NCBI GenBank assembly: GCA_030068145.1
Contig: JAPJBO010000282.1
Location: forward strand, 124,001 to 188,000
Length of the DNA: 64,000 nt
DNA from: Diplonema papillatum
Lineage: Eukaryota; Euglenozoa; Diplonemea; Diplonemida; Diplonemidae
Direction of reading: 5' to 3'
Positions within the stretch are counted from its first letter, which is position 1, and each line of letters opens with the position of its first letter. Positions 15,891-61,313 of this stretch are shown piece by piece. The position numbers were made by a program, and so were the translations under genes. The notes under the pieces are model-generated. The model was not told where the DNA came from. It saw nothing but the letters and a program-made list of their open reading frames with translations, and did no database searches.

Positions 15891-16269
15891 ACGACCTCCA
15901 CCCTATAAACTTCCTTTTATCGCGAGACTTTTCCTCGGTCCCTGCATTTTTCGAATTGTGCGGGTGGACTAACCAGCAAACAACAACAGTTGTCCTGCAC
16001 TCCGTAAAGTTGAAGCATCTGGCAAACGCCGGAGGTTTTCGGTTCGAGTTCTCCGCTATTTTTGTGGGAGCAACGTTGTCTATATTGAATGTGGCAGAGT
16101 GAAGCTCGCCAGGTCACCGGTGAGCTCGTTTTAGTTGACTACAGGCTGGCTGCAGTTGCGCTCTACCTCCTGAGGTTCTCGAGCATGCAGTCGACGAAAA
16201 AGGTCCGCTGCAAGCAGAGGCAAGCGGAGGCAGTTCCTCCCTTGTCCCTCTGTTTCCGGGTTCCGGGTC
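15891..16269. other. Upstream region of CASP gene
   Basis: About 380 bp between the CASP start codon and the minisatellite, without a credible ORF. It should contain the CASP promoter; no TATA-like box or the CATTAAACTAAG motif is visible. Confidence 0.4.
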
Positions 16270-19200
16270 GCGACGTGCTAGTGTGCGTTGGGTGTCGCGG
16301 CGTGCTAGTGTGCGTTGGGTGCGTTGGGTGTCGCGGCGTGCTAGTGTGCGTTGGGTGCGTTGGGTGTCGCGGCGTGCTAGTGTGCGTTGGGTGTCGCGGC
16401 GTGCTAGTGTGCGTTGGGTGTCGCGGCGTGCTAGTGTGCGTTGGGTGTCGCGGCGTGCTTGTGTGCGTTGGGTGCGTTGGGTGTCGCGGCGTGCTAGTGT
16501 GCGTTGGGTGTCGCGGCGTGCTAGTGTGCGTTGGGTGTCGCGGCGTGCTAGTGTGCGTTGGGTGTCGCGGCGTGCTAGTGTGCGTTGGGTGTCGCGGCGT
16601 GCTAGTGTGCGTTGGGTGCGTTGGGTGTCGCGGCGTGCTAGTGTGCGTTGGGTGTCGCGGCGTGCTAGTGTGCGTTGGGTGTCGCGGCGTGCTAGTGTGC
16701 GTTGGGTGCGTTGGGTGTCGCGGCGTGCTAGTGTGCGTTGGGTGTCGCGGCGTGCTAGTGTGCGTTGGTGTGCGTTGGGTGTCGCGGCGTGCTAGTGTGC
16801 GTTGGGTGTCGCGGCGTGCTAGTGTGCGTTGGGTGTCGCGGCGTGCTTGTGTGCGTTGGGTGCGTTGGGTGTCGCGGCGTGCTAGTGTGCGTTGGGTGTC
16901 GCGGCGTGCTAGTGTGCGTTGGGTGTCGCGGCGTGCTAGTGTGCGTTGGGTGCGTTGGGTGTCGCGGCGTGCTAGTGTGCGTTGGGTGTCGCGGCGTGCT
17001 AGTGTGCGTTGGGTGTCGCGGCGTGCTTGTGTGCGTTGGGTGCGTTGGGTGTCGCGGCGTGCTAGTGTGCGTTGGGTGTCGCGGCGTGCTAGTGTGCGTT
17101 GGGTGTCGCGGCGTGCTAGTGTGCGTTGGGTGCGTTGGGTGTCGCGGCGTGCTAGTGTGCGTTGGGTGTCGCGGCGTGCTAGTGTGCGTTGGGTGCGTTG
17201 GGTGTCGCGGCGTGCTAGTGTGCGTTGGGTGTCGCGGCGTGCTAGTGTGCGTTGGGTGTCGCGGCGTGCTAGTGTGCGTTGGGTGTCGCGGCGTGCTTGT
17301 GTGCGTTGGGTGTCGCGGCGTGCTAGTGTGCGTTGGGTGTCTCGGCGTGCTAGTGTGCGTTGGGTGTCGCGGCGTGCTAGTGTGCGTTGGGTGTCGCGGC
17401 GTGCTAGTGTGCGTTGGGTGTCGCGGCGTGCTAGTGTGCGTTGGGTGCGTTGGGTGTCGCGGCGTGCTAGTGTGCGTTGGGTGTCGCGGGGCGTGCTAGT
17501 GTGCGTTGGGTGCGTTGGGTGTCGCGGCGTGCTAGTGTGCGTTGGGTGTCGCGGCGTGCTAGTGTGCGTTGGGTGTCGCGGCGTGCTTGTGTGCGTTGGG
17601 TGCGTTGGGTGTCGCGGCGTGCTAGTGTGCGTTGGGTGTCGCGGCGTGCTAGTGTGCGTTGGGTGTCGCGGCGTGCTAGTGTGCGTTGGGTGTCGCGGCG
17701 TGCTAGTGTGCGTTGGGTGTCGCGGCGTGCTAGTGTGCGTTGGGTGTCGCGGCGTGCTAGTGTGCGTTGGGTGTCGCGGCGTGCTAGTGTGCGTTGGGTG
17801 CGTTGGGTGTCGCGGCGTGCTAGTGTGCGTTGGGTGTCGCGGCGTGCTAGTGTGCGTTGGGTGTCGCGGCGTGCTAGTGTGCGTTGGGTGTCGTTGGCGT
17901 GCGCGTGTGCGTTGTGTGCGTTGGGTGTCGCGGCGTGCTAGTGTGCGTTGGGTGTCGCGGCGTGCTAGTGTGCGTTGGGTGTCGCGGCGTGCTAGTGTGC
18001 GTTGGGTGTCGCGGCGTGCTAGTGTGCGTTGGGTGTCGCGGCGTGCGTTGTGTGCGTTGGGTGTCGCGGCGTGCTAGTGTGCGTTGGGTGTCGCGGCGTG
18101 CTAGTGTGCGTTGGGTGTCGCGGCGTGCTAGTGTGCGTTGGGTGTCGCGGCGTGCTAGTGTGCGTTGGGTGTCGCGGCGTGCTAGTGTGCGTTGGGTGCG
18201 TTGGGTGTCGCGGCGTGCTAGTGTGCGTTGGGTGTCGCGGCGTGCTAGTGTGCGTTGGGTGTCGCGGCGTGCTAGTGTGCGTTGGGTGCGTTGGGTGTCG
18301 CGGCGTGCTAGTGTGCGTTGGGTGTCGCGGCGTGCTAGTGTGCGTTGGGTGCGTTGGGTGTCGCGGCGTGCTAGTGTGCGTTGGGTGTCGCGGCGTGCTA
18401 GTGTGCGTTGGGTGCGTTGGGTGTCGCGGCGTGCTAGTGTGCGTTGGGTGTCGCGGCGTGCTAGTGTGCGTTGGGTGTCGCGGCGTGCTAGTGTGCGTTG
18501 GGTGTCGCGGCGTGCTAGTGTGCGTTGGGTGCGTTGGGTGTCGCGGCGTGCTAGTGTGCGTTGGGTGTCGCGGCGTGCTAGTGTGCGTTGGGTGTCGCGG
18601 CGTGCTAGTGTGCGTTGGGTGTCGCGGCGTGCTAGTGTGCGTTGGGTGTCGCGGCGTGCTAGTGTGCGTTGGGTGTCGCGGCGTGCTAGTGTGCGTTGGG
18701 TGTCGCGGCGTGCTAGTGTGCGTTGGGTGTCGCGGCGTGCTAGTGTGCGTTGGGTGTCGCGGCGTGCTAGTGTGCGTTGGGTGCGTTGGGTGTCGCGGCG
18801 TGCTAGTGTGCGTTGGGTGTCGCGGCGTGCTAGTGTGCGTTGGGTGCGTTGGGTGTCGCGGCGTGCTAGTGTGCGTTGGGTGTCGCGGCGTGCTAGTGTG
18901 CGTTGGGTGTCGCGGCGTGCTAGTGTGCGTTGGGTGCGTTGGGTGTCGCGGCGTGCTAGTGTGCGTTGGGTGTCGCGGCGTGCTAGTGTGCGTTGGGTGT
19001 CGCGGCGTGCTAGTGTGCGTTGGGTGTCGCGGCGTGCTAGTGTGCGTTGGGTGTCGCGGCGTGCTAGTGTGCGTTGGGTGCGTTGGGTGTCGCGGCGTGC
19101 TAGTGTGCGTTGGGTGTCGCGGCGTGCTAGTGTGCGTTGGGTGTCGCGGCGTGCTAGTGTGCGTTGGGTGTCGCGGCGTGCTAGTGTGCGTCGGGTGCGT

Positions 19201-19446
19201 TGGGTGTCGCGGCGTGCTAGTGTGCGTTGGGTGTCGCGGCGTGCTAGTGTGCGTTGGGTGCGTTGGGTGTCGCGGCGTGCTAGTGTGCGTTGGGTGTCGC
19301 GGCGTGCTAGTGTGCGTTGGGTGTCGCGGCGTGCTAGTGTGCGTTGGGTGCGTTGGGTGTCGCGGCGTGCTAGTGTGCGTTGGGTGTCGCGGCGTGCTAG
19401 TGTGCGTTGGGTGTCGCGGCGTGCTAGTGTGCGTTGGGTGTCGCGG
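16270..19446. repeat. 3.2-kb minisatellite, 27-bp unit with 9-bp insert variant
   Basis: Roughly 110 head-to-tail copies of a 27-bp unit (GTGCGTTGGGTGTCGCGG followed by CGTGCTAGT). In about a quarter of units an extra 9 bp (TGCGTTGGG) makes a 36-bp version. Copies are nearly identical; a few carry T for A (GCTTGTGTG), one has CTCGG, one reads CGTCGGG, and indels occur near 16768, 17485, 17890 and 18040. Both lengths are multiples of three and the unit has no stop in several frames, so long ORFs appear on both strands (CVGCRGVLV, RVRWVSRRAS, TQRTLARRD). These are best seen as artefacts of the array. Confidence 0.95.
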
Positions 19447-20644: not shown

Positions 20645-21319
20645 TCACTCGACGTCCATGCCTGACTCGAAGCGCTCCATCGCAGCTTCGAAACAATCCG
20701 CGGACTCGTCCAAGAATTCGGCCATCACGTTCAAGCCCGCGCACATGAGGTCCGGAGGATACGCTTTTGCGGTGACTTCCATGACCATCTCGTCCTCCAA
20801 GGGGTGTGGGATTGAGTACCCGCACTGGAGGACTGTAGGGTTCTGGATCATGAAGTGCCGCAGCGCGTTTCCGAGCGTATTACCCTCTTTTTTGATGGTG
20901 AAAGTCGCGGACTGGTGACCCTCCGAATGCTGCAGAACATCGACCTTGATCTTCGCGTTCGGGTTTGTCCCGTAAATGCCCCACTCTTCCTCGTCTCCGT
21001 CCTCCTTCTTACCCGACTCGTCGCGGAGGTGGTCTGCCGCATCCTGCAACGTCCCGCTTGAAATCAGCATGATCGTGCACCCCGGGGTCACTTGCTCTTC
21101 CGCAAGCGTTCGCCCGTCTTCAATCCGAGTCGACTCGCCTCCCTTTTCCAACATCAGCACCTGGTCCACCCGCCGCCAGTTCCGCAGCGTTTCGCCGATT
21201 TTGTGCTTGAGAACCTCTACGCGGTCGCTCGGCAAGAGGCCATCGATGACGACCTTCTGGCCCTGGCCGCTCGACTGGTCGATGATGGTTACCTGCATCA
21301 TTTTCTCGGTCCCAGCCAT
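20645..21319 (-). CDS. RNA polymerase I/III subunit RPAC2 (AC19) with N-terminal ubiquitin-like domain
   Basis: Complete single-exon ORF, 224 residues from ATG 21319. The C-terminal half (about 123-215) is the AC19/RPAC2 Rpb11-type dimerisation fold shared by RNA polymerases I and III: FTIKKEGNTLGNALRHFMIQ followed by NPTVLQCGYSIPHP is the family signature. RPAC2 pairs with RPAC1 (AC40) and nucleates polymerase assembly. The N-terminal half (about 7-88, MMQVTIIDQSSGQGQKVVID ... TIMLISSG) reads as a ubiquitin-like beta-grasp domain, joined by an acidic linker (about 92-122). Typical RPAC2 is only about 105-150 residues. No di-glycine follows the Ubl, so processing as in ubiquitin-ribosomal fusions is not indicated. 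No intron separates the domains. Confidence 0.93.
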   Translation of the reverse strand: MAGTEKMMQVTIIDQSSGQGQKVVIDGLLPSDRVEVLKHKIGETLRNWRRVDQVLMLEKGGESTRIEDGRTLAEEQVTPGCTIMLISSGTLQDAADHLRDESGKKEDGDEEEWGIYGTNPNAKIKVDVLQHSEGHQSATFTIKKEGNTLGNALRHFMIQNPTVLQCGYSIPHPLEDEMVMEVTAKAYPPDLMCAGLNVMAEFLDESADCFEAAMERFESGMDVE

Positions 21320-24300
21320 TCACCTTTCCCCCCTTCGCTGCAGATATTTTAAGGTGGTGCGCAGTGATCCCTGGCCACCGGGACTACGTTATGCATAAAG
21401 AAGCCAAGGGAGTCGGCGTTCGTTCGCTCGCACCGGATAAAATGGCGGATACTTCCGCCCCCTACCCGGAGGTCAAATACAAAGATGAGACGTGCCAATG
21501 CCCCTTTTTTGCGCCCCGGCTGTAAAATTGCTCGGCCTTACTTTTCGGTAGCCTTTGTTACTTGGGTCGAATACAAGAGGTACCTGTTGCATTCGGCGTG
21601 CCGATCCTGCAATTTTCCCGAGGGAATAGTGGAGTTGCAGGTCTTGACAAAGATAGATGGAAAAAAGAAGGTGTTTTTATTCTTCGCTTTTTCTCACGAA
21701 CAGGGGTCGGTCCTGCTTTTGGCTTTGTAGGTTCTCCCGACTCCCCTATTCGTGGTCAGCACAAACTCAAGAGGTCTAGTCAACTATTCCCTGCAGTATT
21801 GGCATACTTTCAAAAAAAAAAAATAATAGAAAAAAGTACCGCAAACCCGGAACCCGCGGGAACCCCCTTCTTCTTGGAAGACGCACGTAATTTGTGGTCC
21901 CCGGGTCTATTTTTCACGGTTCTCTTCATCGGAGCTGCACGCGAGTGCCTTTTACTTGAGTCATGTTGCAAAATGACCCCCTCTGTGTGGTGGGGCACGG
22001 GAAGAGAGACATTGCTCGGACTTCGGGGGTCGGAGAGCCTGGTCTAGAGCGCAACGACGTTCGCGCGGTTTCGGCAGGAGACGAGCGACAAAAGGAGAAG
22101 CGCCGGACGAATTTGCTTTGGAAATGCTGCGGTCAGCGTGACATCTCGCAATTTATTGAGAACCGCAGTACAGGTACTGCAGCGCCGGAAGACGAATTGG
22201 TCATGTTCGGTGGTGGGTACCTTTAACGGACAGACGGAATCGTCTGTGGAACCTGTGCCGTGTGCCGCAGGAGCAACGGCACTACCTGTGCGTGCCAAGT
22301 GACTCTATGGCATAAGTGAGAGGTGACACGCACACACTGGAAGGTCACCTCTTCTTTGAAGTTCCGCTGCAGCAGCATCCGAACGTCTGCATATGCGCGC
22401 GCATTGCACGCCGCAACACACAAGGCTCACGGAACGACGAACCGAGGATCGGAAAGCTAGCGACAGGTGGCATGGTGGCATGCGACGCAGTGTACGCTGC
22501 ATGGAATCGAAGTGCCACTCCTTGTTTGCATACAAGGTAACCCAACACCACGCTATCGCTGTCCGAAGTCGCTAGCATCTTCCATGGAATCCGCTTCGTC
22601 GTACGCCACTTGCGCCGCCATCGTGAGGCAGAAGCACGCGAAGCCAATTCGGAGAGGGTACCTCTTCTTGCCAGGGGTCGCTACCTTCGCAATCCGTGCT
22701 TCTCTGTGAGGTTGAGAGTAACCGCATTCTCGCGCACCTTTTTTTTTGCTGACGATCAACGGGAATGCGTTACATTCCACCGGGGGTCTACTCTGGGCAT
22801 CTTGCCAAAAACAAACAAAAAAATGGGATCTCGAGTAAATTTCTCGCTCATTTCCTACCAACAGGCACTAACCTGTCCAAGTTCCGGCCTGGCCTGTGCA
22901 CCGTACCTCAATGCTCACTACAGCGCGCAATCCTGCGAGTCTCCGGTGCAAAAATCCTAGGAGAGCTCGATAAGTCGGGGACATACCGCTGATGCGTGGC
23001 GTCGCTCTTTAGGTAGAACCACGAAGCCGGGGCCACAACGCAAGTCAGCAGAAATGGAAGGTTGCGGGGTGGCCTCCACTCCTGTTGCCACGGTTTCCGC
23101 GCGATTGCGCGCGGCGGATGCGACGGTTCGCCGTTGGTTTCGACCATTTCGCAACCGCACCCTCCCCCTTGATACAGAACGTGAGGTTGTACAACACTTC
23201 TCCAATCGAGCCTGGGGCTCGTCTAAGCTGCAGTCCCCTGTCACACGAGCTACCCAAGGAGGCCATCGTAGTGTCCGCGTCACAGTCGCAATCTTCAGCC
23301 AGACACCTGGTGCCGGTGGATCCACGGGTACTAAAAGAGCTTCGTTCCAGGGGTTGACCAAACACCCCGGTTCGGACCCTCAACCTCTCAAGAGAAAAGT
23401 CGAAGAACTCGATGCGAGCAAAGCGTCTGTCGCGAGGTAATTATTTGGGTCCCTTCGGACGAACCGCGAACGTGACGCGATCAGAGGATCCGGGTCAGTT
23501 CCGACGAAAGCCGAACTGAAAAACGCGAAGGACGGGGTTTGTCAGTGAGAAGGCGAGCTCTTCGATGAAGAAGACCAACAGCCAGCCAGGCATCAGGCCC
23601 GCAAAGACACGGACACAACCCTCAAAAAAAGTGGTCAACATTTTCCATTCGGATCTGTGTATTGTGTCTGGGACCGTCAAGGACAAACGTGATCAACATC
23701 CTTCCAATGCACAACGCGAACTAGTTGTGAGTATCTGGAGTCTATCCGCCTGGCGAGCAAACAAAAAAGACAGGCGCTTCGTTTTGTTTGTGCGTGCCGG
23801 TTGATCGTTTTCCCACTTCTATTTACCCTGAGTATATGCAGGCAAGGAATTCTGATCAACCACCAAAACACGCTGTCTACGTCTTTTTAGCCTGCACAAT
23901 ACATTGAAGGGCAACCCGCACGATTGCTAGTACTAAAAAGAAAAAGAAAGAGAAACATGGGTTTTGAACCGCGTGTATCCGAGACACACCTGCTCCCCTT
24001 CTGGCTTTTGTGATTAACAACGAAGGCGAGGTGAAGAACGCGACATTCCACAAAGGCACAAAAAAGGAGAAAAGGTGAAAGAAAAACAAGAATGAACAAG
24101 CATATAAAACTTTGAAAAGAACGCGGGTGTGTCCGGGTGTTCGAGCGTGTTTTTTTTTGGGCGAGCCCGCGTATGCCGGCGTGTGTGCAATCGTGTTTGT
24201 TGCTCTGTGTGGTGCAACAGCAACAACATGCCAAACACAGGGCCCTGTACAGACCAGGGAAACTAGTTTGGCCGACCTGACGTCGGAGGCCCACAGCTTT

Positions 24301-27541: not shown

Positions 27542-30500
27542 CTTGATTGCTTCTAGGTGAGTGGGGAAGAACAGGGATCGGAGCTTTCGGCGGTCGACAA
27601 GCTCCTCGCGGCGGAGGATGGCGTAGTCGGCGCGCTGCCGCAAGTCGAGGATGACGAAGTCCTTGGCGGCGCGCGAGCTGCTCATGGCGAAGCCAGGTTT
27701 GGAGAGGGACGCGTCGTGGTGCACGGTTGCCGACGAGTACTTCGACCCCGAGAGGCCGGCCAGCAGGTCGCGCACGCCGGCGGGCGACTTGGTGCGGGGC
27801 GGCGTGGATACCACGGAGTCGACCGCGCCGTAAAACGGCGAAGGCGACGGCGCCTCGAGCGCAGCGGTGGCTTGGTCTACTTCTTCATACGTGACGCTCT
27901 CTTCGTCGGTGTCGTCGTCGCCGCGGGCGAACTGGCTGAACTTCGAGAATCCGAAGCTGGCCATGCGCTGCCGGCCTTCGTGCGTAAGAGGGACGTCGTC
28001 GTCCTCTTCGACCTTCAGCCACGGGTGCTGCAAAATCGTCAACGCGCTCGCCCGCTCCGACGGGCTGTACTCGAGCATCGGGAGGAGGAACGCCATCAAC
28101 TTTCGAGTCTGTCGCAAGTGGATCGTTTTACTTTCCTTTGCTCGGTGCCATTTGACTCGCGGGATTAAGCGATCCACAGTTGCATTGTAGCTGGCTCTGC
28201 CTGCTGTCTTGGGAAGGCGTTGCAAGAATGAGAAAAAACCGTACACCGCGAGCGTAGGAGAAAGTAGAAAGGGAAACTAGAGTTTTCGTTGACCGCACTA
28301 CCCTGAGCCCAAATCCTGGACGTGGTTTCAGGTGGCAAATTTGGCAAATGATCATGATCAGAAGGTCCTACTTGGGCGGTTCAGTTTCCTCACACATTGC
28401 ATGTGGCTAAAACAAATGTTGCAAATGGAATGGTACGTGTGCAATTTCTGATCCCTACCGCACTGCTCTGACGAGAAGTGCCAAGACAGAGGCAAGTAAG
28501 AACACGGTTCATAACTTAACTTCTTTCACCCACCAACACCCTAAGGCTGTGCAGTTCTCTTTTTTGGCCTGTGGTGCATCGACCCTCGGTGAACATGTGA
28601 AAGAAATTGACGGAACGAACGCTGAAATCGCTGAAGTCACGCACCTGTTCTTGCGTCGCGCCGGTCCGCTCGATGAAGACCTCCTCGAACTCGTTCTGCG
28701 GCACGGGCCCGGGGATGAAATCGCCGTTTTCGTCGAAGTACTGCCCGCAGTGCCACCCGCCACCCGTCCTCATGCTCAGCGGAAGAGGACCGAGCGTCTC
28801 CATGAAAAGGACGACGTGCTGCACGTTTTGGGGCAGCGGGCCGTCGACAGCCTTCGGGTTGAACAGGAAGCAGCCCGTCAGCAGCTCGTAGCACGTGCAA
28901 GCGACGCTCCAGACGTCGATCGCCACGTCCGGCGAGTAACCGAGGACGACTTCGGGCGCGCGGTACTCGAGTGTCTGCATGTGGTGGACTGTTTTGTCCT
29001 CCTCGACCCACTTCGAGCTGCCGAAGTCGGACACTTTGCAGCTGTAGGTGCGGTCCATGAACTCAGCGAGGGTGAGGTCGTCCGGTTTACGAAGGGTCCC
29101 TGCTAGGAGCTGCTTCGTGAGTTCCGGGTCGCTTTGCCCGTTGGCGTCGAGCGTTTGGATCAATACGTTCTCGGGTTTGATGTCCGCGTGCGCGAGTCCC
29201 ATGCTGTGCAAGAAGGCGAGACCTTCAACCATATGCTTGATTAGGGTCTTCACGATGCACGGCGACGCGCCTGCAAACTCGTGCGCGGTCAACAGCTTCA
29301 GGATATCCGGCCCAACGGCCTCTAACGCCATCGTCGGGTGTGTTCCGTTGGGGCCCTCGATTTCAAAGTAGTCCGACATCCGCACCAGCCGCTGCGCGCA
29401 CTGCTTGAGCACTTCGATCTCCGTCTTCTCGTAGTGCGCGTTCGTTTTCTGCAAGACGTCAACCTCGAACTCCGACATGTCGTGGAAGGACCGCGCCGCC
29501 TTTCCGACCTTCAACGCCACCGGCCGGCCGCCGGTGAGGTCCTTCGCGAGCCAAACGGTCGAAAAATTGCCCCAGCCGAGCTTTCGTGTGACTTCGTACC
29601 GCTCGTTGTAAACGTCCGCCACCGACACCCTGTGGTAGCCTCCGACACAATAGGAGCTCTCGTCCTCGTCGTCCTCCGCATTAAACGTGTGGTCCTCCTT
29701 GCGCTGCGACGCGATGTGCTCGTAGTGCCGAGCTACATGTGAAGCCAGGAGGTACTCATTCGCGTTGTACAACTCCGCGAGCATGTCCCGCGTGATTCCC
29801 TTCGAAGGATCCGCATCCACCACGCTGCAGCACTGCTCCCACGAATCGAACCAGCCGAAATCCTCCAGCCACATGGCCCCCGACTCCGCGTCCCAGTACC
29901 CCTTTTCGTCGAAATCATAGCTGCGGAAGATGACGTCCAACAGCGACTCCAACCGGGCGTAGTCCCGCTCTGCCAGAGCACCGATTTCGGGGTCAAGTTC
30001 GCCGGTCCCCCCACTCGCGTCGTCGAGGGTGGTCCAATGCCGTTCGAGTGACCCGGCCCCTCGGTACCACTCGTTCATAGTCTCCAAGTCGAGACCTGTC
30101 ATGGGGTTCACCTCGGCTTCCTTGCAGGTGTGCTCCCAGTCGGAGAGGTCGCACTCCTGCCCTTCGGTGACCGACATCCACTTGTTGGTCTCGGTGATGC
30201 ACCAGAGCCCGTCCTTGTTCGAGTCGAAGATTTCAAAGATCTTCTTCACCTTCTCGACGTCGATATCCTCCCCGTCCCCGCGAGGCGGCGGCGGCGGGAC
30301 GTCGTTGGTGAGCGACAGCCGGGCCGCGGCGTCCTTCGGCTTTGCGGAAGACTTGCTGCTGCTCAGCTCGTCGTCGTTCGAGAGGAACGACGCGCCGCCG
30401 TGGATCGACGCCCCTGCCGCCGCTTCGATGATCCGCAGGTGCACCGGGAAGAATTCGCGGCGGAGGACCCGTCGCCCTTCGAGCTCTTCGAGCTGCATCG

Positions 30501-30546
30501 CAGCGCGCTTGGTGCGCTCCTCCAACGCGAGGCTGACCATCGTCAT
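27542..30546 (-). CDS. SRPK-like serine/threonine kinase with N-terminal EF-hand-like region; 3' end unresolved
   Basis: Exon 1 is 30546-28645 (634 codons) and exon 2 is 28108-27542 (189 codons); the 536-bp intron is CAG|GTGCGT ... CGACAG|ACT, phase 0. Two degenerate EF-hand-like loops lie at about 108-120 and 209-222. The kinase domain starts at about 318: glycine loop GWGNFSTVW (324-332), ATP-binding Lys 346, catalytic HADIKPEN (Asp 455; the Arg of HRD is Ala, as in the SRPK HTD form), and DFG 507-509. The large gap between lobes and the last helix in exon 2 (FLLPMLEYSPSERASA ... LQHPWL) are SRPK-like. SRPKs phosphorylate Arg-Ser splicing factors. A short motif is repeated at both ends (RREFFPVHLRII and RSLFFPTHLEAI). 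Exon 2 ends at AAG|GTGCGT; the terminal exon was not found. Confidence 0.88.
28109..28644 (-). other. Intron in SRPK-like kinase gene
   Basis: 536 bp, donor GTGCGT, acceptor TTGCGACAG. Its removal joins the kinase C-lobe in frame (GATQEQ then TRKLMAFLLPM), as in SRPK proteins. GC is visibly lower than in the exons. Confidence 0.8.
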
Positions 30547-30633
30547 TCTCTCCCCCCCCCCCAACGGAACGCGTCGCCCGGCCTGGCCGCGTCCGGCCCT
30601 GTCGCCGCCCGCACGCAAAACGTGGGTGTGCTG

Positions 30634-30659
30634 CCCCCCCCCCCCCCCCCCCCCCCCCC
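30634..30659. repeat. C26 homopolymer upstream of kinase gene
   Basis: Uninterrupted run of 26 C on the plus strand (G on the gene strand), about 90 bp upstream of the kinase ATG. A G tract this long could form quadruplex structures and is prone to length change or assembly error. Confidence 0.9.
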
Positions 30660-30752
30660 GCTGCCCTCCGTCCCTACGCCACCGCTTCCCCTCTGTTTCG
30701 GTACACCCGGATCGAGACGTCCAGACCCGCTTCGCTCGCGGCCGGAAACCCC

Positions 30753-30764
30753 CTTAGTTTAATG
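30753..30764 (-). promoter_or_regulatory. CATTAAACTAAG motif upstream of kinase gene
   Basis: Exact 12-mer on the gene strand, about 207 bp upstream of the kinase ATG. Related sequences lie upstream of the genes starting at 41628, 47562 and 59823. The role is unknown (promoter element or splice acceptor). Confidence 0.4.
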
Positions 30765-32544: not shown

Positions 32545-35500
32545 TCACAGATCACCGAACGAGTGCGGAGTTTCACTCCGGCTCCTGGTCCACCGAGATC
32601 CGGCGCTCGCATTCCATTTGCCCCTTTCCCTCACACGATTCCACAACTCGGCAGCTCTTGACGCCGTGCCGGAGCGGAGCAACGCCGTCGATGCGATGCG
32701 AGCGTCCTCGCGAGCGGACACGAAGAAGCCCATGACCTGCTCCTGCTCATATTGGATCTCGAGGCACGCTAGCAAACCCATGCATCGCAGCTTCATGCGC
32801 ACGCCGCAACCGAAAGGCGACGCTGCATCATCCTCAACACTCTCGACACGAAACGTCATCAACGGTCCCAGAAGCAGCTCCTCCTCCTCCGGGTACTGAG
32901 AAAGGGTGCTGAGCAGGTATCCAGACAGTACGTTCTCGACCGAGAACAAAATCGTCCCCGGCCGTTCGGCGGTCGGCTTGTTCCGGGCGTTCGCGGCCTC
33001 GCCGTACATGTATGCTATGCTTTGGCTTTTATGCAGTGAAAGAGAAGACAGTGCGGGCCATGTAAGCATAGTCCCCGGTGCCATGAGGCGGTGTGCGTTG
33101 ACGACTTCTGCTGGGAGCCCGCCTGCGCCGAGTCCTCTCCACAGCGTCAGGGATGAGAACGTGTGCTTCTCCGCCGCAACCGCGGCGGCTACGGTGATCA
33201 GCCACTTGATCCACTTCCTTAAGATGGCCTCCGACCAAGCACTCCGCGCCCCTCCCGGGCCTTGGTCTCGCAACGCTGCGCACACGGGGCCGAACAAGCT
33301 GCCATTCCTCCGCAACGGGTCGTCGTAGTGCAGGGACCAGTCCCAGTCGGTATACCGGCGCTCGTACTCGTCCACGGCTAGCTTGCCTGCGAGGTCGCTG
33401 GGTCCCTCGGGAGGGAGCGGAACGTCGGGCCAGCCCAAGTCACGGTCGACGTCCATGGGCTTTTGCGTGTACTGCCGGAGAACCAATGCTTCGACCAGCG
33501 AGGGCTGCTGGCCGGACGAGTTGCTCCGCATCGAGCTGTTGAGCAGCGGCGAGGACATTTGCCCTTCCGTCGACAGGATGGACCGCGCGATCCGATTCAG
33601 GACCCGGCGCTTCAGTGCTCGGGTCCGCACCGAGGAAGGGAAACGGAGGTTTTGCACCAACTCCTGCACCACGTCGCCAGGTTTCGTGGTGTACCATTCG
33701 ACCAGCCGGTTGACCAGCTCCCGGGTTTCATCGTTCGACGTATCGTCCGGGCGCTCGGTTTCTTGGACATCGACGTTGCCTTGCACGCTGCCGAGCCACT
33801 GCTCTATTTTTTTCTGCAGCCCGACCGGGGCCGCGGGCACGCTCTCCCGCTGCGGCGAGGCCGCGGAAGGCGCTTCCTCCGACGAGGCGGCGTGCGCCGG
33901 CGCTTTCGGGACCGGCGGCCGACCGTGCTGCTGCGGGTTCGGCTCGAAGATCTGGAACGAGAAGCAGCCGGCAGCAGCCGGAGCCACGGAACGGATCCGC
34001 CCCGCGGGGATGCCGAGAGAAGCTGCGAGGTTCACCCTGCAGTTTTCGGGGTCCTGCTCGTCAGGAGACCCCATTCTGGCTTTGGGGAGGTTGATGGTGT
34101 AGCTTTTGCCGATGACCGCGGCGCGGGGGACGCCGGCGTATCCAGCTGCCGAGTCGATTGCTTTTTGATCGGACAGGCCGCCGAACCGGAGGGTTCCGGC
34201 CGGCAGCAACTCGTCGTCGTCGTCGTTGAATTGGTCGCTCAGGGCGCCGTCGTCTGTCCCGAAATCGTCGTCTTCCTCGTCCGACCACAGGCCTATCGCG
34301 TCCTGCACGCGGACATGCTCTTCGAGCATGTTGAGGGTCATCGCAGCCAAGCGTTCGGGGGTGTACTTCTCGAGGCTGTCATGCGGCATCGTCGACAGCT
34401 GGTGGACCGGCGCCGCGGGGATGGAGCCCGCTCGGATCTCGTGGATGAGGCGAGCGGCCAAAGGGTCGCTGGTGCCGATTTGCTCCGAAAGCTGCTCCAA
34501 CGCCTCGTCGGCCTCCTTCGCCTTGCCGGCCCGCATCGCCAGCCGCGCGGCGGCGATCGAGCCCGCGAGCTGCGAGTTCATACTCGACGCCCCGCTGGCG
34601 AAGCTGTTCAGCTTGACGTGGTTCCTCAGCCTCGGCGACATCAGCATCGAGCTCCCCGACCGCCCGCTGATGGCCGACCGGGGGGACAGCATCGGGCTGA
34701 AGATGTCACCGCTGTTGCCCAGGTTGCCGACGCCGTACTTCCCGGGGATCCTCGGCGGGATCTTCAACCCGGACGCGCCGCCCGCGCCCTGCGGGGGCAG
34801 CGGCGGGAGCAGCGGCGGCCGACTCCGCGCCGGCGACGCTGGCGACTTGAACAGCGGCGGCGAGTCTCCACCGGAGGTCAACGACTTGTCCACCGGCGAC
34901 CCGGAGCCGCCGGACGAGACCGGCAGCGTCGAGATCTGCGCCTCGCTGCGCTGCGACGGGCGCAGCGGCGACGTGTTCAGCGTGTCGACGCGGCAGTCGT
35001 CGTCGGGCGACTCACCCACGACGGCAGGGAGCGCCGCCGGTGGAGGGTCCGTGCCGTCTGCGCCTGCGTCCACGCGCGACGCGCGGAGGACCGGAGAAGG
35101 GAGGTCGCCGCTGTTGACCGATTGGTACGAGGACGTCGACTTACCAGCGAGGTCCGGCGGCCCGGTGACTGATATCTCGTGTGGCGTCGAGCTGTGCCTG
35201 TGCGGCGGGCTGTCGCCTTCGAACGAGACGTGCGGCCGCTTCGAGCGGAGCGGGTTGGTCGGCGACGGGAAGCTGCACGGGATCGATGCGTGGCTCGTGC
35301 TGAAGTTCTGGGGCGACAGGTCCGCCGCGGCGCCGTCGGCGGTCGGCGACTGCTGCGGGGGCCGCGGCCCGCTGTGGACGTTGTGCGCGGGCGGCAGGGG
35401 CGGGCTGTCCTGACGCGGCGTCCTCCGCTTGATGGAGCTCGCCAGCTGTGGCGTGTGCATAGGAGACATGCTGCCCCTGCGCTCCTTGCCGACGGAATGC

Positions 35501-38500
35501 GTGGGCGTGGGGCTGCCTGCGCGGTTGTTGCGCGGAGACGACTGCATCAATAGATCGTCGTCGTCGAACGGCGCTGGGTGCTGTCGTTCAGGAGCACTGC
35601 TGCCGGCTGCTTTGGGCTCGGTTGTCGCGCGCTCCGGCGTCGCGCCGAATAATATAGAGTCCGCAGACGTGCACGACTGCATGGACGAGGCGGGTGACAC
35701 GCGGCGAGGGCGAGGATCCGACTTGCGAGACCCACGCCGGCTCCCTGGAGGGCTGCCCTCCATCGCACTCGCCCAGCTCTCGGTGTCGGATGCGACCGAC
35801 GCGAACCCTTCGTCCCGTGAGCTCGCGCTCGACGCAAACGCGGCGGCTGCCGCGGTGCTCCCGCGCCTGGGCAGGTCCAGGAGCAGGTCGCCGTCTTTAG
35901 TTAAAGTTTTCGTGGGTGCCGCCTCTTCGTGCGCCGGCGGATGCGCGTTCAACGGCTCGGCATCGGAGTCTTCGCTGACGGTGACGCGGGCGCTCGCGGG
36001 TTGCGGCTCGAGCGTTTTGACGGTTCCCGCATCGCTGTGCACGTCGATTCCGTGTCGCAAACCGAACTCCAAGCCGAAGGCTTCGTCTAGCGGGCGAGCG
36101 AGCGTCGAGGCAATGCTGCCGCCGGCGTCGAACGGGGACGCTGGGTGGAACAGGCCGGACTTTCGGTTCGTGGGCGACGCGGCTGGGGACGGCGCGGGGG
36201 TCCCGGCCTTGGCGCTCGGCCGGTCGAAGCTGGCGCCGGAGGCCTTCGGCCGGTGGGGCGGGGAGTACGGGTAGTTCGGGTTGTCGACGGCGGCGCGCTG
36301 CATGCGCAGCGGCCGCCACGCCTTCGCGGCCGACGGGCGGAAGGGGTCGTCGACCGCGGCCGCGAAGTGCCCGCTGCCCGAATCGTCGCCGAGCTCGACG
36401 GTTTTCTGCGTGCCGCCGCTCGAGTTGCCGCAGCCCCCGCTCGTGACCTTGCTGCTCGCGTTGCTCTTCTCAGTCAGCTTGCTGCGGAACGACGTCGTCC
36501 CCGCGAACGCGTTCGTCGTCTCCAGCCGGCACTTCGGCGACTGCAGCGGCGAAGCCGCCGACCCACTGGCCACGGTGTCGGACAACACGCCGGGGAGCTC
36601 GAGGAAGCTGATCTTGAATTCGTCCTCTTTGGCCTCCTCCTTTTTCGCGGCGGTGGTTGACATCTTCACGACGGTGCTCGGGTGGCTTTCGGTCTCGGTG
36701 TGCTCCCCGTGGCTCGTGCTCACCGTGCCTTCGTCGACGACGACTTGGTTGACACGGGGGGAGCAGCCGAAGGGCGCGCCTCCGTGGATTTGCGGTTCGA
36801 TCCATTGGAAGTGGCGGAGGCTGCCAACGGTGCTTAACTCCTTCGGGCTGCTGTCAGACTCGCAGACGTAGGGGGTAGGGGGCGTGCCGGCGGGTGACGT
36901 TGCGGCCAGGGGGGCGAACTCGACGGGGGAGAAAGGGGGCGGGGTCGATGGGTTTTGCTGCTGCTCGTTGAAGAAGATCGCGGCGACGTGCGCCTGCGTG
37001 TCGAGCCGCTCGCGGGTTTCGAGCCACTTGGAGTAGCTGAGACTGTCCTGGATCTCGTCGAGGACGAACGTCTCGTCCGCCATCTCCGACTCGCCGTCGC
37101 CGGCCCGCGCGAGCATCTCCGAGATGAACGTGCTGTTGCCCGCGGTCATCTCGCTGCTGGTCGGGTGCAGCCGCAGCCCGCCCTCCCCCCGCGACCGGGC
37201 CCCGGCGGCTATTTGGTCGAACTTCACCGTCCGCGTGTCCGGCTCGCTCCCCCGCCGGAGCCGCCCCGACTGCCCCGATGAGCCGGTCGCGCCCATGGCC
37301 GAAATCCCCGTGTTCCCCATGGCCGAAATACCCGTGTTCCCCAAGTTCATCGACACCACCAGCGAGCTGGGACCGGTCGTTCGGATCGGCGTCGCCGCGC
37401 CCCGCTTCAGAATCCCGGTCGTTGGCATCGTCCACGAGTCCTCGAGCACGAAGCCGCCATCCCTCCTCCCCCTGGACGAAAGCCCCGTCGGCGACGGGTC
37501 CGACGAGCTGAGCTGCAGCGACTCCGTCGCCCTCGTCGCGCTGGTCCTCGCGGTGTCCGCCGTCTGCCCGTGGTGCGAAAACGACGGCGCCGCGGCGCTG
37601 CCCCCGCTGTTGTCGTGCGCGTCGGAGCGCCGCGACTTAGCCTCGGCGGAGGCCGAGCTCTCCGAAGGAGACGGCGAGTCGTCGGGCATCGCGGAGACGA
37701 TGAGCGTGATGCCCTCGCCGACGAGGTGCACGGCGGGTTTTTCCTCCTTCTCCTTCTCCCTCTCCCCCGGGTCCTTCGCGGCCGCGTCCCCGCCCGGGGC
37801 CTCGAACCGGCCCGCCAGCTTGACGGGCTCGGCGGTTTTCGAGTACTCGAGGCTGTCCAAGTCGCCCTCCACGGTCAGCCACTTCCCCGCCTTCCCGCTG
37901 CCCTGGTTGCCGCTGCCGGCACCCGGCGGGCTTTTCGAGCTGTGCCGCCCGCTGCTGTTGTGCGCGCTCGCTTTGCCGAGGCTGCTGGGCGCGGCGTGCG
38001 CGTTGTGCAGCGTCTTGTCGCTCGCGAGCTGCTGCGGGCTGTGTTCGTCCGCCGCGGACACCGACACGGAGAAGGTGTCGCGCCGGCCCTCCGAGGCAGT
38101 CTCCGGGGAGCTTCCGCCCGTCGGGATCGGCGCGGCGGCGTCGGGCGGCGACGCGCGCGGCCGGCGGATCGACGTGCGGCCGCTCTCCTTCAAAAAGTGG
38201 GCCGCCGCCGAGAACGGGGTCTGCTGCTGCGAGCTGCTCCCGCTGGTGGTCGCCTGGCCCTCGCTGCCCACCGCGCTCAGCCGCGTCTGGTCGTGCGGCG
38301 CTTTGCACGTCGCCGAAGACGGGCTCCCCGCAGTCCCCCCCGAGGCCCCGTGCTGCGCATCGAACACGCCGCTGGACACTTTCGTTGCATCGGTCTTCCC
38401 CGCGGAGCCCGTGTCTCCATCCTGAGTGCCCTGCGGGTGTCGGCTTCGACCACTGAGCACGCTGCCGTGTTCAGCGGTCGATCCTGATTTCTCCTCACTT

Positions 38501-41500
38501 CCAACGCCTTGGTTCGTTGCTGGTTCGGGCCCGGGTCTCATTGAATCCGTCGCCCCTTTCGGTGACGCCGGGTCCGCGTCCCCCCGTTGGAGGCTGGGCA
38601 CCTTCTGCAGAACCCTGCTGCGCATCTCGAAGTAGCGGCTTTTCGTCGTGCCGTCGCCGGTCCTCTGCGTCGAGGAGTTGGTGGCCTCCAGCGCGCCCAG
38701 GCGGGCACCGACGATCTCGCGGAAGTTGTCATCTGCGCTCGGCGCCGTGTCGGCACCCGGGGCCCGCGAGACGGTAATGGAGCACTCCAACGGCTCGGTC
38801 GTCTGCTTTTCCAGGAGCTGCAGCGGCTTTCGTTCCGCACCGGACGACGTGGACGCCGTGTCGCTGCGCGTGAGGTGCGAGCACGAATTCGCTTCGTCGC
38901 CGGGCGGTGAACTGGGTGGAGAAGAAGCGTGGCTGTCGCGGCGGAGTTGCAGGCTTTTGGTGATGCGGAGCAAACCCTTGCGTTCATCGCTGCCGCTCGG
39001 GACGACCTGCGGGCGGGAAGGCAGCGTCCGCGGGCGAAAGGCAGAGGACGGCACGGAATCGTTCGACGGCGTGCGTTTGAATAGCTCGTCGTCGAGCGGG
39101 CTCCGGAACCCATCGGAAACGCCGTCAGACGACTCCTTCCCTGCTCTCGGTGGGTACGAATTCGCCGCGCGCGGCGTCGAAGCGCATGACTGCATGCGCA
39201 CAAGGAACGAAGGTCTCGCGTCGTCATCGGCTTCATCGGTCCATCCTTCCACCTTCCGTGGGGAATCCGCCTCTTCGGCCACTTCGATAGACACGTTCTG
39301 ACCGGGCATCGGGCTGTGTACGCCTGTGCTCCAAGTACCGCTCGCGTCGTTTCGCTTCTTCGCCAGGGTACTTTCCCGTGGGTTCAGCAAGTTCCGCCTT
39401 TGCTCTCGCGCATCGGGCGGTAGCCTCGGCTCCACCGGCAGCGTGTTCACCGGGTCCGTCGAGTCGGCCGTCGACGCTTCAGAAGATAGGACGCTCACTT
39501 CCGCCGCCGGCACAAGTCTCTCCGGCGGAGAAAGCGTGCGACGCACGCGGACGGGCGGCGTCACTTTGGGTTCCCTTCGTTCAGGGGATACCGGGTCCGA
39601 TACCCGCTTCCGGCTTGTGTAGTTAGAAGATGGGCTGGGGGCACCGGTGACTCGATCAACGACCGGGGAATCGGATGAACTGGAGGGATTGGAAAGCCGC
39701 GCCGGGACGCTGCCATAGGGGCCTACGGATGACGATGGCGTATGTGACGCGTATCGCACCGTGGTGGCTTGCAAGGGTGTCAGCTGGCGGGGAGACGCGG
39801 GCTCGACGGCGATGGCGGTGAGGCACGTCTTCGAGAAGTCAGCCGTGTCCGTCAGAACCACGACGGGCATTTCGTTTCCGTCGCCGAAGAGCAGCTTCGC
39901 CGCGTGCTTCGTCGCCGGGGGCTCCGTGTTGACGGCCGCGTGCGCCACCGACGACGGGCGGCCGTCTTTCCGCGCCGGCGAGCGCCGCTTTTGGTCCCCG
40001 CTGCTCGCGCTGCTACCGCTGCTGTCGCTGGACTGCCTGCGGGGTTTTCCGCGCGCTGCGGAAATCAGGCACTCCTCCGGCGTCGTTTGCTGCGCGGCGT
40101 CCCTCCGCAGCAGGGCCCTCCGAGACCTCCGGCGGCTGGCACGACGCTCGGACGAGTCGCTGAGCGACGTTTCCCGACGACGGCTCTCACTGCTTCCGCC
40201 TGTGCTTGCCCTGTTCGACCTCCGGCGTGCTTCGAGAGCGGCGGGGGGATCTGATTCCTTGTGCGGTCTTGCAACGGAATCTCTCCTCCGGCGGCTGGCA
40301 CGACGCTCGGACGAGCCGCTGAGCGAAGCTTTCCGACGATGGCTCCCACTGCTTCCACTGCCTGATCTATTTGCCCTCCGGCGTGCTCCGAGAGCGGCGG
40401 GGGGATCCGGTTCCGTGTGCGGTCTTGCGACGGAATCTCTCCTCCGGCGGCTCGCGTGCCGGCCCTCGTCGTGCCCGCCGTCGCTGCAATCGCTGCTCAT
40501 CTCGCTCCGCGGCGGCGTTCCCGGCTCCGCGGTCGCCACCGTCTCCGGAGTGCCCGCGCGCCGGCGGCGCTTGCGTCCCGAGTCGCTGCTGCTGCTGCTG
40601 CTTCTGGCCGCGCCGCCGGAGTGGCCAGCAGCTCCCCCGGCCAAGCGGCAGCCGTGGAGCATCTTATCGGGGTCCGACGCCCGATCGGTTGACGCCCGCC
40701 GGCGCTCGTCGTGCTGCCGGCCCCCGGAGCAGTACCCGCTGTTGCCCGACGGCCGCGCCGCGGTCTCCCGCCGCTGCCGCTGCTGCTGCAGCGGCAGCTG
40801 CTGCTGCTGCTGCCGGCGGGCGTCCGCCTCCCGGGGGTGCTGCTGCCGCTGCCTCGCCGGCGACCCCGAGTGCTCGCGCTCGATGGACGTGCGCAGCTCC
40901 CGCGACCTGCGCAGCAGCGCGTCGTGCCGCCGCCGGCGCTCGAGCACGTACCGCTCGAACTCAGCCGCCGCCGAACGCCCACAGGCGGCCGGCGGCGGAG
41001 CCGATCTCGTCGCGGGCCACGCCTCGGTCTTCTCCGAGGCGAAGCCGTCCGCGTCCAACGCGCGCTGCCCGCGGGCCGTGCGGACCGGGCTGCAATTCGA
41101 GCACAAAAGCACCGCCTTCCGCTCGGGAAGCCCGCCACCGCGGCGCCTGTCGACGCTGTCGCTGAGGGGCCCCGCGTCGTTCGAGGAGAACAGCAACGCG
41201 GGCGGCGACTTCCGCCGCTTCGCGGAAGCCGCGTTGAAGTAGCTCTCGTACTCGAGGGTCCCCGCTGCTTGCCGCAGGACGCCGCCGCCGCGCTGTTCTG
41301 CGGGTGTCGGCGGCGGCGGGGACAGCCGGCAGCTGGGGCTGCGCCCGCCCGTGCGCCCCTCCAGCGGCAAACCCGGGCGGGTGTACAGCTTGGTGTACGC
41401 TGTGACCGGCTGCGCCCGCGAAGCCGCGGCGCCGCCGGTCGATCGGGCCCCGCCGCACACGTGTAGGCGCGGGTGCCCGCTGCCGGCCTCGGCCGCCGCG

Positions 41501-41628
41501 GCCCCATCGGCGCTGCCGCTGGCGCCGCGCTGCGGCCGTGCCGCGGGCAGGTCGCGTCTCGGGCCGTCGCTCAGCGGCACCGGGCCGGCGTACCGATGCA
41601 GGGGCACCGATCCGGGACCGCCGTGCAT
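32545..41628 (-). CDS. Giant disordered protein with C-terminal R-S-E class ADP-ribosyltransferase domain
   Basis: Uninterrupted ORF; the first ATG (41628) gives 3027 residues. Residues 1 to about 2600 are low-complexity (Ser, Pro, Arg, Gly, Asp), with Arg/Ser-rich blocks, polyGln/polySer runs and near-duplicate segments (RASRRRDSVARPH ... PPAALEARRR, three copies near 400-520). The last ~350 residues fold-match an NAD-dependent mono-ADP-ribosyltransferase: a helical lead-in, then R2831 in LTLWRGLG, an S-x-S (2862-2864) in PALSSLSLHKSQS, and E-x-E (2915/2917) in QYPEEEELLLGP followed by MTFRV. Together these give the R-S-ExE triad of arginine-directed transferases. Such enzymes move ADP-ribose from NAD to protein. 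There is no signal peptide or membrane segment, so an intracellular location is inferred. A short uORF (41704-41684, MLTAYQ) precedes the start. The last ~55 residues match nothing; an unseen intron there is possible. Confidence 0.82.
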   Translation of the reverse strand: MHGGPGSVPLHRYAGPVPLSDGPRRDLPAARPQRGASGSADGAAAAEAGSGHPRLHVCGGARSTGGAAASRAQPVTAYTKLYTRPGLPLEGRTGGRSPSCRLSPPPPTPAEQRGGGVLRQAAGTLEYESYFNAASAKRRKSPPALLFSSNDAGPLSDSVDRRRGGGLPERKAVLLCSNCSPVRTARGQRALDADGFASEKTEAWPATRSAPPPAACGRSAAAEFERYVLERRRRHDALLRRSRELRTSIEREHSGSPARQRQQHPREADARRQQQQQLPLQQQRQRRETAARPSGNSGYCSGGRQHDERRRASTDRASDPDKMLHGCRLAGGAAGHSGGAARSSSSSSDSGRKRRRRAGTPETVATAEPGTPPRSEMSSDCSDGGHDEGRHASRRRRDSVARPHTEPDPPAALGARRRANRSGSGSSGSHRRKASLSGSSERRASRRRRDSVARPHKESDPPAALEARRRSNRASTGGSSESRRRETSLSDSSERRASRRRSRRALLRRDAAQQTTPEECLISAARGKPRRQSSDSSGSSASSGDQKRRSPARKDGRPSSVAHAAVNTEPPATKHAAKLLFGDGNEMPVVVLTDTADFSKTCLTAIAVEPASPRQLTPLQATTVRYASHTPSSSVGPYGSVPARLSNPSSSSDSPVVDRVTGAPSPSSNYTSRKRVSDPVSPERREPKVTPPVRVRRTLSPPERLVPAAEVSVLSSEASTADSTDPVNTLPVEPRLPPDAREQRRNLLNPRESTLAKKRNDASGTWSTGVHSPMPGQNVSIEVAEEADSPRKVEGWTDEADDDARPSFLVRMQSCASTPRAANSYPPRAGKESSDGVSDGFRSPLDDELFKRTPSNDSVPSSAFRPRTLPSRPQVVPSGSDERKGLLRITKSLQLRRDSHASSPPSSPPGDEANSCSHLTRSDTASTSSGAERKPLQLLEKQTTEPLECSITVSRAPGADTAPSADDNFREIVGARLGALEATNSSTQRTGDGTTKSRYFEMRSRVLQKVPSLQRGDADPASPKGATDSMRPGPEPATNQGVGSEEKSGSTAEHGSVLSGRSRHPQGTQDGDTGSAGKTDATKVSSGVFDAQHGASGGTAGSPSSATCKAPHDQTRLSAVGSEGQATTSGSSSQQQTPFSAAAHFLKESGRTSIRRPRASPPDAAAPIPTGGSSPETASEGRRDTFSVSVSAADEHSPQQLASDKTLHNAHAAPSSLGKASAHNSSGRHSSKSPPGAGSGNQGSGKAGKWLTVEGDLDSLEYSKTAEPVKLAGRFEAPGGDAAAKDPGEREKEKEEKPAVHLVGEGITLIVSAMPDDSPSPSESSASAEAKSRRSDAHDNSGGSAAAPSFSHHGQTADTARTSATRATESLQLSSSDPSPTGLSSRGRRDGGFVLEDSWTMPTTGILKRGAATPIRTTGPSSLVVSMNLGNTGISAMGNTGISAMGATGSSGQSGRLRRGSEPDTRTVKFDQIAAGARSRGEGGLRLHPTSSEMTAGNSTFISEMLARAGDGESEMADETFVLDEIQDSLSYSKWLETRERLDTQAHVAAIFFNEQQQNPSTPPPFSPVEFAPLAATSPAGTPPTPYVCESDSSPKELSTVGSLRHFQWIEPQIHGGAPFGCSPRVNQVVVDEGTVSTSHGEHTETESHPSTVVKMSTTAAKKEEAKEDEFKISFLELPGVLSDTVASGSAASPLQSPKCRLETTNAFAGTTSFRSKLTEKSNASSKVTSGGCGNSSGGTQKTVELGDDSGSGHFAAAVDDPFRPSAAKAWRPLRMQRAAVDNPNYPYSPPHRPKASGASFDRPSAKAGTPAPSPAASPTNRKSGLFHPASPFDAGGSIASTLARPLDEAFGLEFGLRHGIDVHSDAGTVKTLEPQPASARVTVSEDSDAEPLNAHPPAHEEAAPTKTLTKDGDLLLDLPRRGSTAAAAAFASSASSRDEGFASVASDTESWASAMEGSPPGSRRGSRKSDPRPRRVSPASSMQSCTSADSILFGATPERATTEPKAAGSSAPERQHPAPFDDDDLLMQSSPRNNRAGSPTPTHSVGKERRGSMSPMHTPQLASSIKRRTPRQDSPPLPPAHNVHSGPRPPQQSPTADGAAADLSPQNFSTSHASIPCSFPSPTNPLRSKRPHVSFEGDSPPHRHSSTPHEISVTGPPDLAGKSTSSYQSVNSGDLPSPVLRASRVDAGADGTDPPPAALPAVVGESPDDDCRVDTLNTSPLRPSQRSEAQISTLPVSSGGSGSPVDKSLTSGGDSPPLFKSPASPARSRPPLLPPLPPQGAGGASGLKIPPRIPGKYGVGNLGNSGDIFSPMLSPRSAISGRSGSSMLMSPRLRNHVKLNSFASGASSMNSQLAGSIAAARLAMRAGKAKEADEALEQLSEQIGTSDPLAARLIHEIRAGSIPAAPVHQLSTMPHDSLEKYTPERLAAMTLNMLEEHVRVQDAIGLWSDEEDDDFGTDDGALSDQFNDDDDELLPAGTLRFGGLSDQKAIDSAAGYAGVPRAAVIGKSYTINLPKARMGSPDEQDPENCRVNLAASLGIPAGRIRSVAPAAAGCFSFQIFEPNPQQHGRPPVPKAPAHAASSEEAPSAASPQRESVPAAPVGLQKKIEQWLGSVQGNVDVQETERPDDTSNDETRELVNRLVEWYTTKPGDVVQELVQNLRFPSSVRTRALKRRVLNRIARSILSTEGQMSSPLLNSSMRSNSSGQQPSLVEALVLRQYTQKPMDVDRDLGWPDVPLPPEGPSDLAGKLAVDEYERRYTDWDWSLHYDDPLRRNGSLFGPVCAALRDQGPGGARSAWSEAILRKWIKWLITVAAAVAAEKHTFSSLTLWRGLGAGGLPAEVVNAHRLMAPGTMLTWPALSSLSLHKSQSIAYMYGEAANARNKPTAERPGTILFSVENVLSGYLLSTLSQYPEEEELLLGPLMTFRVESVEDDAASPFGCGVRMKLRCMGLLACLEIQYEQEQVMGFFVSAREDARIASTALLRSGTASRAAELWNRVRERGKWNASAGSRWTRSRSETPHSFGDL

Positions 41629-41683
41629 GTAACGCACGGGGACGGCGGCGTCGTCGGCGGCGGCGTTGTTGGTAGTCCACTCA

Positions 41684-41704
41684 CTACTGGTACGCCGTGA
41701 GCAT
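41684..41704 (-). other. Upstream ORF before the giant ADP-ribosyltransferase gene
   Basis: ATG CTC ACG GCG TAC CAG TAG, six codons, in a different frame from the main ORF and about 56 bp upstream of its ATG. If transcription starts further upstream it could dampen translation. Confidence 0.45.
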
Positions 41705-41720
41705 GTAACGGGGGGGAAGG

Positions 41721-41758
41721 GGATCTTAGTTTAGTGTTGTCGGGCAGGATCCTGCCTC
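41721..41758 (-). promoter_or_regulatory. Upstream motif copy A (palindrome plus ACTAAGAT)
   Basis: On the gene strand: GAGGCAGGATCCTGCC, then AACACTAAACTAAGATC. A perfect GGCAGGATCCTGCC palindrome precedes the core. It lies about 95 bp upstream of the ATG at 41628. Confidence 0.5.
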
Positions 41759-54108: not shown

Positions 54109-54351
54109 AATGTGGTCAGAACAGCTAAACAACACTTATTCACGATGTGGTCAGAATAGCTCGACAACATGCGCCCACAGTGAGGCTATTGAGTCCTTTG
54201 GATCCGGTCTATATCCGGTTCGATACATTGTAGCGGAAAGGCAGAGGGGAAACGAGTGGATGGGCAAGAGAGCGCGAGCGGCTGCGTGTGAGGGTGAGAA
54301 GTCCGTGTTAGCCGCTGCTAGCAAACGAACGAAACGGGGGAGAGCCCAAAC

Positions 54352-61187: not shown

Positions 61188-61313
61188 GCGGCGGCCCCCC
61201 GTAGCCAGCAGCTGCTTCACACGCTGGGGGAGGCTGGGGGGTGTCTAATGCGCGGCGGCCCCCCCCGTAGCCAGCAGCCGCTTCACACGCTGGGGGAGGC
61301 TGGGGGGTGTCAA
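61188..61313. repeat. 64-bp tandem duplication at the 3' end of the EF-hand/polyQ gene
   Basis: Two copies of a unit containing GTAGCCAGCAGC and GCTTCACACGCTGGGGGAGG, ending GTGT(C/A)AATGCGCGGC. The second copy runs into the stop codon region of the CDS at 61310. Confidence 0.9.

Follow-up and report, generated by a model that had tools for sequence, protein, structure and literature searches.

A putative ubiquitin-like domain joined to the RNA polymerase I/III subunit AC19 in Diplonema papillatum

Diplonema papillatum appears to encode AC19 (RPAC2), a subunit common to RNA polymerases (Pol) I and III, as the C-terminal part of a longer protein that begins with a divergent ubiquitin-like domain (Ubl). 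The gene is one open reading frame (ORF) at positions 20645 to 21319, stop codon included, on the minus strand of the window, by which we mean the whole 64,000-nucleotide stretch analyzed here (contig JAPJBO010000282.1, positions 124,001 to 188,000, assembly GCA_030068145.1). An earlier note on this DNA had described a Ubl-RPAC2 ORF at these coordinates and proposed that the Ubl stays on the polymerase subunit; the ORF and its coordinates are confirmed here, and that interpretation as a whole is partly supported. We regard the fusion itself as very probable, and the Ubl probably remains uncleaved; a docking or assembly role for it is a more tentative suggestion. The best explanation overall, toward which we lean slightly, is a diplonemid AC19 with a permanent, integral N-terminal Ubl that would act as a docking and assembly module.

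One reading frame and its RPAC2 half

The ORF encodes 224 amino acids in one unbroken frame, predicted to be a single exon, running from an ATG at 21319-21317 to a stop at 20645-20647. It is bounded by an in-frame TGA (21320 to 21322, minus strand) that adjoins the first ATG on its 5' side. A plus-strand reading of the same interval was rejected since its frame holds stops. Log-odds scores for codon use, with approximately 1600 codons from the domain-bearing segments of four ORFs of the window as the training set, came to +33.5 for residues 1-88, which include the Ubl. The linker scored +20.7 and RPAC2 +40.9. In the remaining five frames of each piece, values ran from about 0 (a single antisense value) to -94. 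Upstream of the ATG, the frame of the ORF scored -42.5. GC content at third codon positions was 0.79 in residues 8-88, 0.79 in the linker, and 0.75 in RPAC2. Codon use thus looks coding-like throughout the Ubl, the linker, and RPAC2, and not upstream of the ATG. From sequence alone an intron in the linker is possible, because a donor-like GTAAG and a GTGGG are found there (codons ~103 and ~112), yet the coding signal on both sides lies in one frame.

Residues 123-224 (20648 to 20953, minus strand) form the RPAC2/AC19 dimerization domain. The Pfam scan placed RNA_pol_L_2 (PF13656) at residues 138-201 with 62.7 bits against a cut-off of 27 (E = 2.7e-17), and the top PDB matches were fungal RPAC2, 7aoc (E = 1.5e-13, 54.3 bits) and 4c2m (E = 2.2e-12, 50.5 bits), which bears out the RPAC2 identity given in the earlier note. 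The motifs TLGNALR and CGYSIPHP are common to the ORF and fungal RPAC2. The best RPB11 match in the PDB reached 47.2 bits (E = 2.4e-11), human RPAC2 scored 41.6 bits and ranked under two RPB11 sequences, and a search with the C-terminal part ranked RPAC2 first as the whole protein had done. These scores suggest that the ORF is nearer RPAC2 than RPB11, by a modest margin. In NCBIfam the protein matched archaeal models of RNA polymerase subunit L and no others, all below their cut-offs; the Ubl had no match. The protein had been described as roughly twice normal size; it is larger indeed, but the factor was a little high, 224 amino acids against 125, 142, and 133 in the PDB RPAC2 chains being 1.6 to 1.8 times.

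Genome searches, which covered an assembly of 271 Mb in 2910 contigs, found no second copy of the Ubl-RPAC2 protein. The PF13656 profile gave three matches at two loci, namely the ORF and two exons on contig C409. Joined by hand, these exons match RPB11 best (55.5 bits, versus 46.6 for the best RPAC2), and on sequence similarity this locus is RPB11. Because of this, the Ubl-RPAC2 ORF is the sole RPAC2 candidate found, in a search that an RPAC2 gene split by many introns could escape. AC40, the dimerization partner of AC19, was not found: the lone genome match to PF01193 at E <= 0.001 sits in an RPB3-like ORF (L047, 727-2205, minus strand). Read by eye, that ORF has a long Ser/Arg-rich stretch ahead of its conserved part and an uncertain start codon.

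The ubiquitin-like half and the junction

Residues 8-88 (21056 to 21298, minus strand) form the putative Ubl. In the Pfam scan of the whole protein, PF00240 matched residues 20-86 with 15.5 bits (E = 0.015). When residues 1-94 were searched alone it was the top match, with 18.4 bits (E = 0.0019 over 24736 models). Since this is below the 25.4-bit cut-off, we call residues 8-88 ubiquitin-like and not a member of PF00240. The next matches, also below their cut-offs, were TECR_N (E = 0.044), a ubiquitin-like domain by its Pfam description, and TilS-like (E = 0.094). With phmmer, residues 1-94 matched mostly ubiquitin chains. Those of a single ubiquitin had E values of 0.036 to 1.2; the lower values of di- to tetra-ubiquitin, reaching 5.1e-7, result solely from summing over repeats. 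A further two matches were ribosomal proteins (E = 0.32 and 0.92). Against a profile built from 20 Ubl segments and the ubiquitin of the same genome, 1 of 5000 shuffles scored as high as the real sequence, and hhalign gave E = 5.6e-5 with probability 66. By the Pfam E value and the shuffles, residues 8-88 resemble the ubiquitin-like superfamily (CL0072) more closely than chance would give. The only genome match to the Ubl at E <= 10 was itself, so that no close paralogue was found. Taking the sub-threshold Pfam score together with the prevalence of ubiquitin chains in phmmer, we consider the N-terminal half very likely to be a Ubl, though a divergent one. Of the two families that the earlier note had proposed to search, RNA_pol_L_2 was recovered above its cut-off and the ubiquitin superfamily below it.

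A single-sequence model of the N-terminal region (mean pLDDT 71.5) has strands at residues 5-14, 22-30, 53-57, 63-66, and 82-86 and a helix at residues 31-47, which is the beta-grasp order; its matches in the fold search were weak, and the full-length model was left out of that search because its mean pLDDT was 41.4. Pfam, PDB matches, codon use, and shuffles uphold the claim that a Ubl and RPAC2 share one exon, while the beta-grasp fold of residues 8-88, for which structure prediction had been suggested as a check, is weakly supported by the predicted order of strands and helix. The region could instead be some other beta-grasp domain (of the PB1, UBX, RA, or TBCB/TBCE type), or a lineage-specific extension that is ubiquitin-like by chance. 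This would agree with the sub-threshold Pfam score and with the VIA-align fold search, in which the two best rows were PB1 entries and UBX, DIX, and TBCE/TBCB rows lay within 1 Z. Ubiquitin, however, came first in the sequence searches, and residues 27-86 align with it almost collinearly, with PSDxxExxKxKI and EDGRTL in common. Neither PB1 nor UBX was among the three Pfam families that matched residues 1-94 at E <= 10, in a search where HMMER filters discard many weak matches. We consider this alternative unlikely.

Two further explanations would leave the polymerase with an AC19 of ordinary size. In one, an internal start or trans-splicing within the ORF provides a protein of 141 amino acids from Met84, near the 142 of yeast AC19, and the long form is minor. 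Because leader trans-splicing is common to all Euglenozoa (excerpts of PMC10161547), alternative leader sites within the ORF are possible, and the 15 AG sites listed as richest in pyrimidines, from a scan of ~460 bases upstream of the ATG and ~360 within the ORF, include 5 that lie inside it. Met84 has A at -3, where Met1 has T. Yet the seven highest-ranked AG sites are all upstream of the ATG, codons 1-88 are both coding-like and Ubl-like, Met84 is part of the final strand modeled for the Ubl, and Met7 and Met8 also have A at -3, either of which would retain the whole Ubl as a start. An internal start is therefore improbable in our estimate. In the other, equally improbable, the ORF encodes a precursor like Ub-eS31, Ub-eL40, and FUBI-eS30, whose Ubl aids folding and is then removed. 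The Ubl is N-terminal and its partner belongs to the ribosome-making pathway, as in those precursors, but the domain is distant from ubiquitin in sequence and the residues at its end read TIMLISSGTLQ, with no Gly-Gly following. The only GG of the protein, at residues 60-61, is internal to the Ubl, so that the absence of a cleavable Gly-Gly, as the earlier note had it, stands; an intact diglycine is required for FUBI-eS30 processing (excerpts of PMC8354635). A point that weighs against a retained Ubl, and for cleavage, is that ubiquitin or a Ubl left on these ribosomal precursors hampers assembly (excerpts of PMC8354635 and PMC8122580). For this reason, a Ubl that stays on AC19 would need a harmless site on the polymerase.

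Possible role and comparison with known systems

The linker (residues 89-122, 20954 to 21055, minus strand) is mostly acidic, and part of it can be aligned with the N-terminal extension of yeast AC19, which is acidic too. On this flexible arm of 34 residues the Ubl would jut out from the AC40-AC19 dimer, which is peripheral on the enzyme, is an early assembly intermediate, and is contacted by Rrn3 (excerpts of PMC13374769). The Ubl could then serve both as an in-cis folding aid and as a docking surface for a Ubl-binding partner in Pol I/III assembly or regulation. Excerpts of PMC8122580 describe the cis-chaperone role of ubiquitin fused to eL40 and eS31 as minor but positive, and describe uncleaved ubiquitin-like domains, such as those of Rsa4 and Ytm1, as interaction modules. 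It is a more speculative and rather doubtful extension that diplonemids, perhaps all Euglenozoa, have a permanent Ubl docking domain in this shared subunit, through which one Ubl-binding partner would act on assembly, turnover, or regulation of both polymerases.

What is new is that a single gene combines these two domains, each already known. The matched PDB RPAC2 chains, of 125 to 142 amino acids, have no room for a Ubl before the dimerization domain. Ub-eS31, Ub-eL40, and FUBI-eS30 likewise attach an N-terminal ubiquitin or Ubl to part of the ribosome-making machinery, but are cut at Gly-Gly, and their partners are ribosomal proteins instead of a polymerase subunit; the Ub-eS31 of Giardia is reported as uncleaved (excerpts of PMC8122580). 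Rsa4/NLE1 and Ytm1/WDR12 also have an integral, uncleaved N-terminal Ubl and act in ribosome production, with a Ubl that binds the midasin MIDAS (excerpts of PMC8122580). Their Ubl is joined to WD40 domains, that of the ORF to RPAC2. Rrn7 is linked to Pol I. In the Ub-zf-RRN7 fusion, ubiquitin is joined to a zinc finger whose Pfam name points to this factor; it is a true ubiquitin, at least 80% identical to that of yeast in the survey, and has another partner (excerpts of PMC8122580).

A Ubl-RPAC2 fusion was unreported in the open papers searched, supplementary tables such as the list of Pfam architectures in PMC8122580 (Table S2) aside. In a review of alpha-like subunits, "ubiquitin" and "fusion" occur 0 times (PMC13374769), and in the portion of PMC6562600 covered, RPC19 is named once and "ubiquitin-like" 0 times. 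Of 42 pattern matches in prokaryote genome contigs and 8 in viral contigs, 0 were confirmed as relatives; these non-eukaryote collections are uninformative on conservation. The AC40-AC19 dimer is of interest as a hub in the assembly of Pol I and III (excerpts of PMC13374769). A fusion occurring in nature would point to a Ubl-binding factor as a route for controlling assembly or turnover. Diplonemids are the sister group of kinetoplastids. Since the Pol I of trypanosomatids is already unusual (RPA31, RPB5z/6z/10z; excerpts of PMC6562600), a further change to Pol I in diplonemids would fit the pattern. Variants of alpha-like subunits associated with disease cluster in dimer interfaces (excerpts of PMC13374769).

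Genome setting and neighboring ORFs

The earlier note had assumed an alveolate origin, which is not borne out. A 19-base query that we take to be the end of the euglenozoan spliced leader, with one position open to fit diplonemid and kinetoplastid forms, had 329 + 299 = 628 matches in the genome against 0 for the reversed control. At the open position, the letter presumed to be the diplonemid one stood in 100 of 100 among the matches listed (of 628). D. papillatum is itself a euglenozoan. Its genome is described as 280 Mb, with introns in 41% of genes (excerpts of PMC10161547).

Between 9559 and 62965 of the window, a Pfam family is matched above its cut-off in 8 of the 11 minus-strand ORFs scanned (glucosidase II beta-like, cytidylyltransferase-like, CUX1_N/CASP-like, RPAC2, a kinase, hAT dimerization, and two EF-hand ORFs), as against 0 of the 9 scanned on the plus strand. 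This bias, in the subset of ORFs scanned, fits co-transcription on one strand. On the minus strand, 32548-41730 is very rich in GC and has a frame that stays open for 3061 codons; this frame matched no Pfam family at E <= 0.01. The region 16267-19446 is a minisatellite with a 27-base unit in ~109 copies and higher-order periods of 90 and 117, and gives long open frames of repeat on both strands. The two EF-hand ORFs lie at 54154-55653 and 61313-62965 (minus strand), the former also with a sub-threshold BILBO1_N match. The kinase ORF (28519-30753, minus strand) has its protein kinase domain at residues 386-646 and, ahead of it, a weak EF-hand match under cut-off (residues 169-189); in CDPKs the two usually come in the opposite order.
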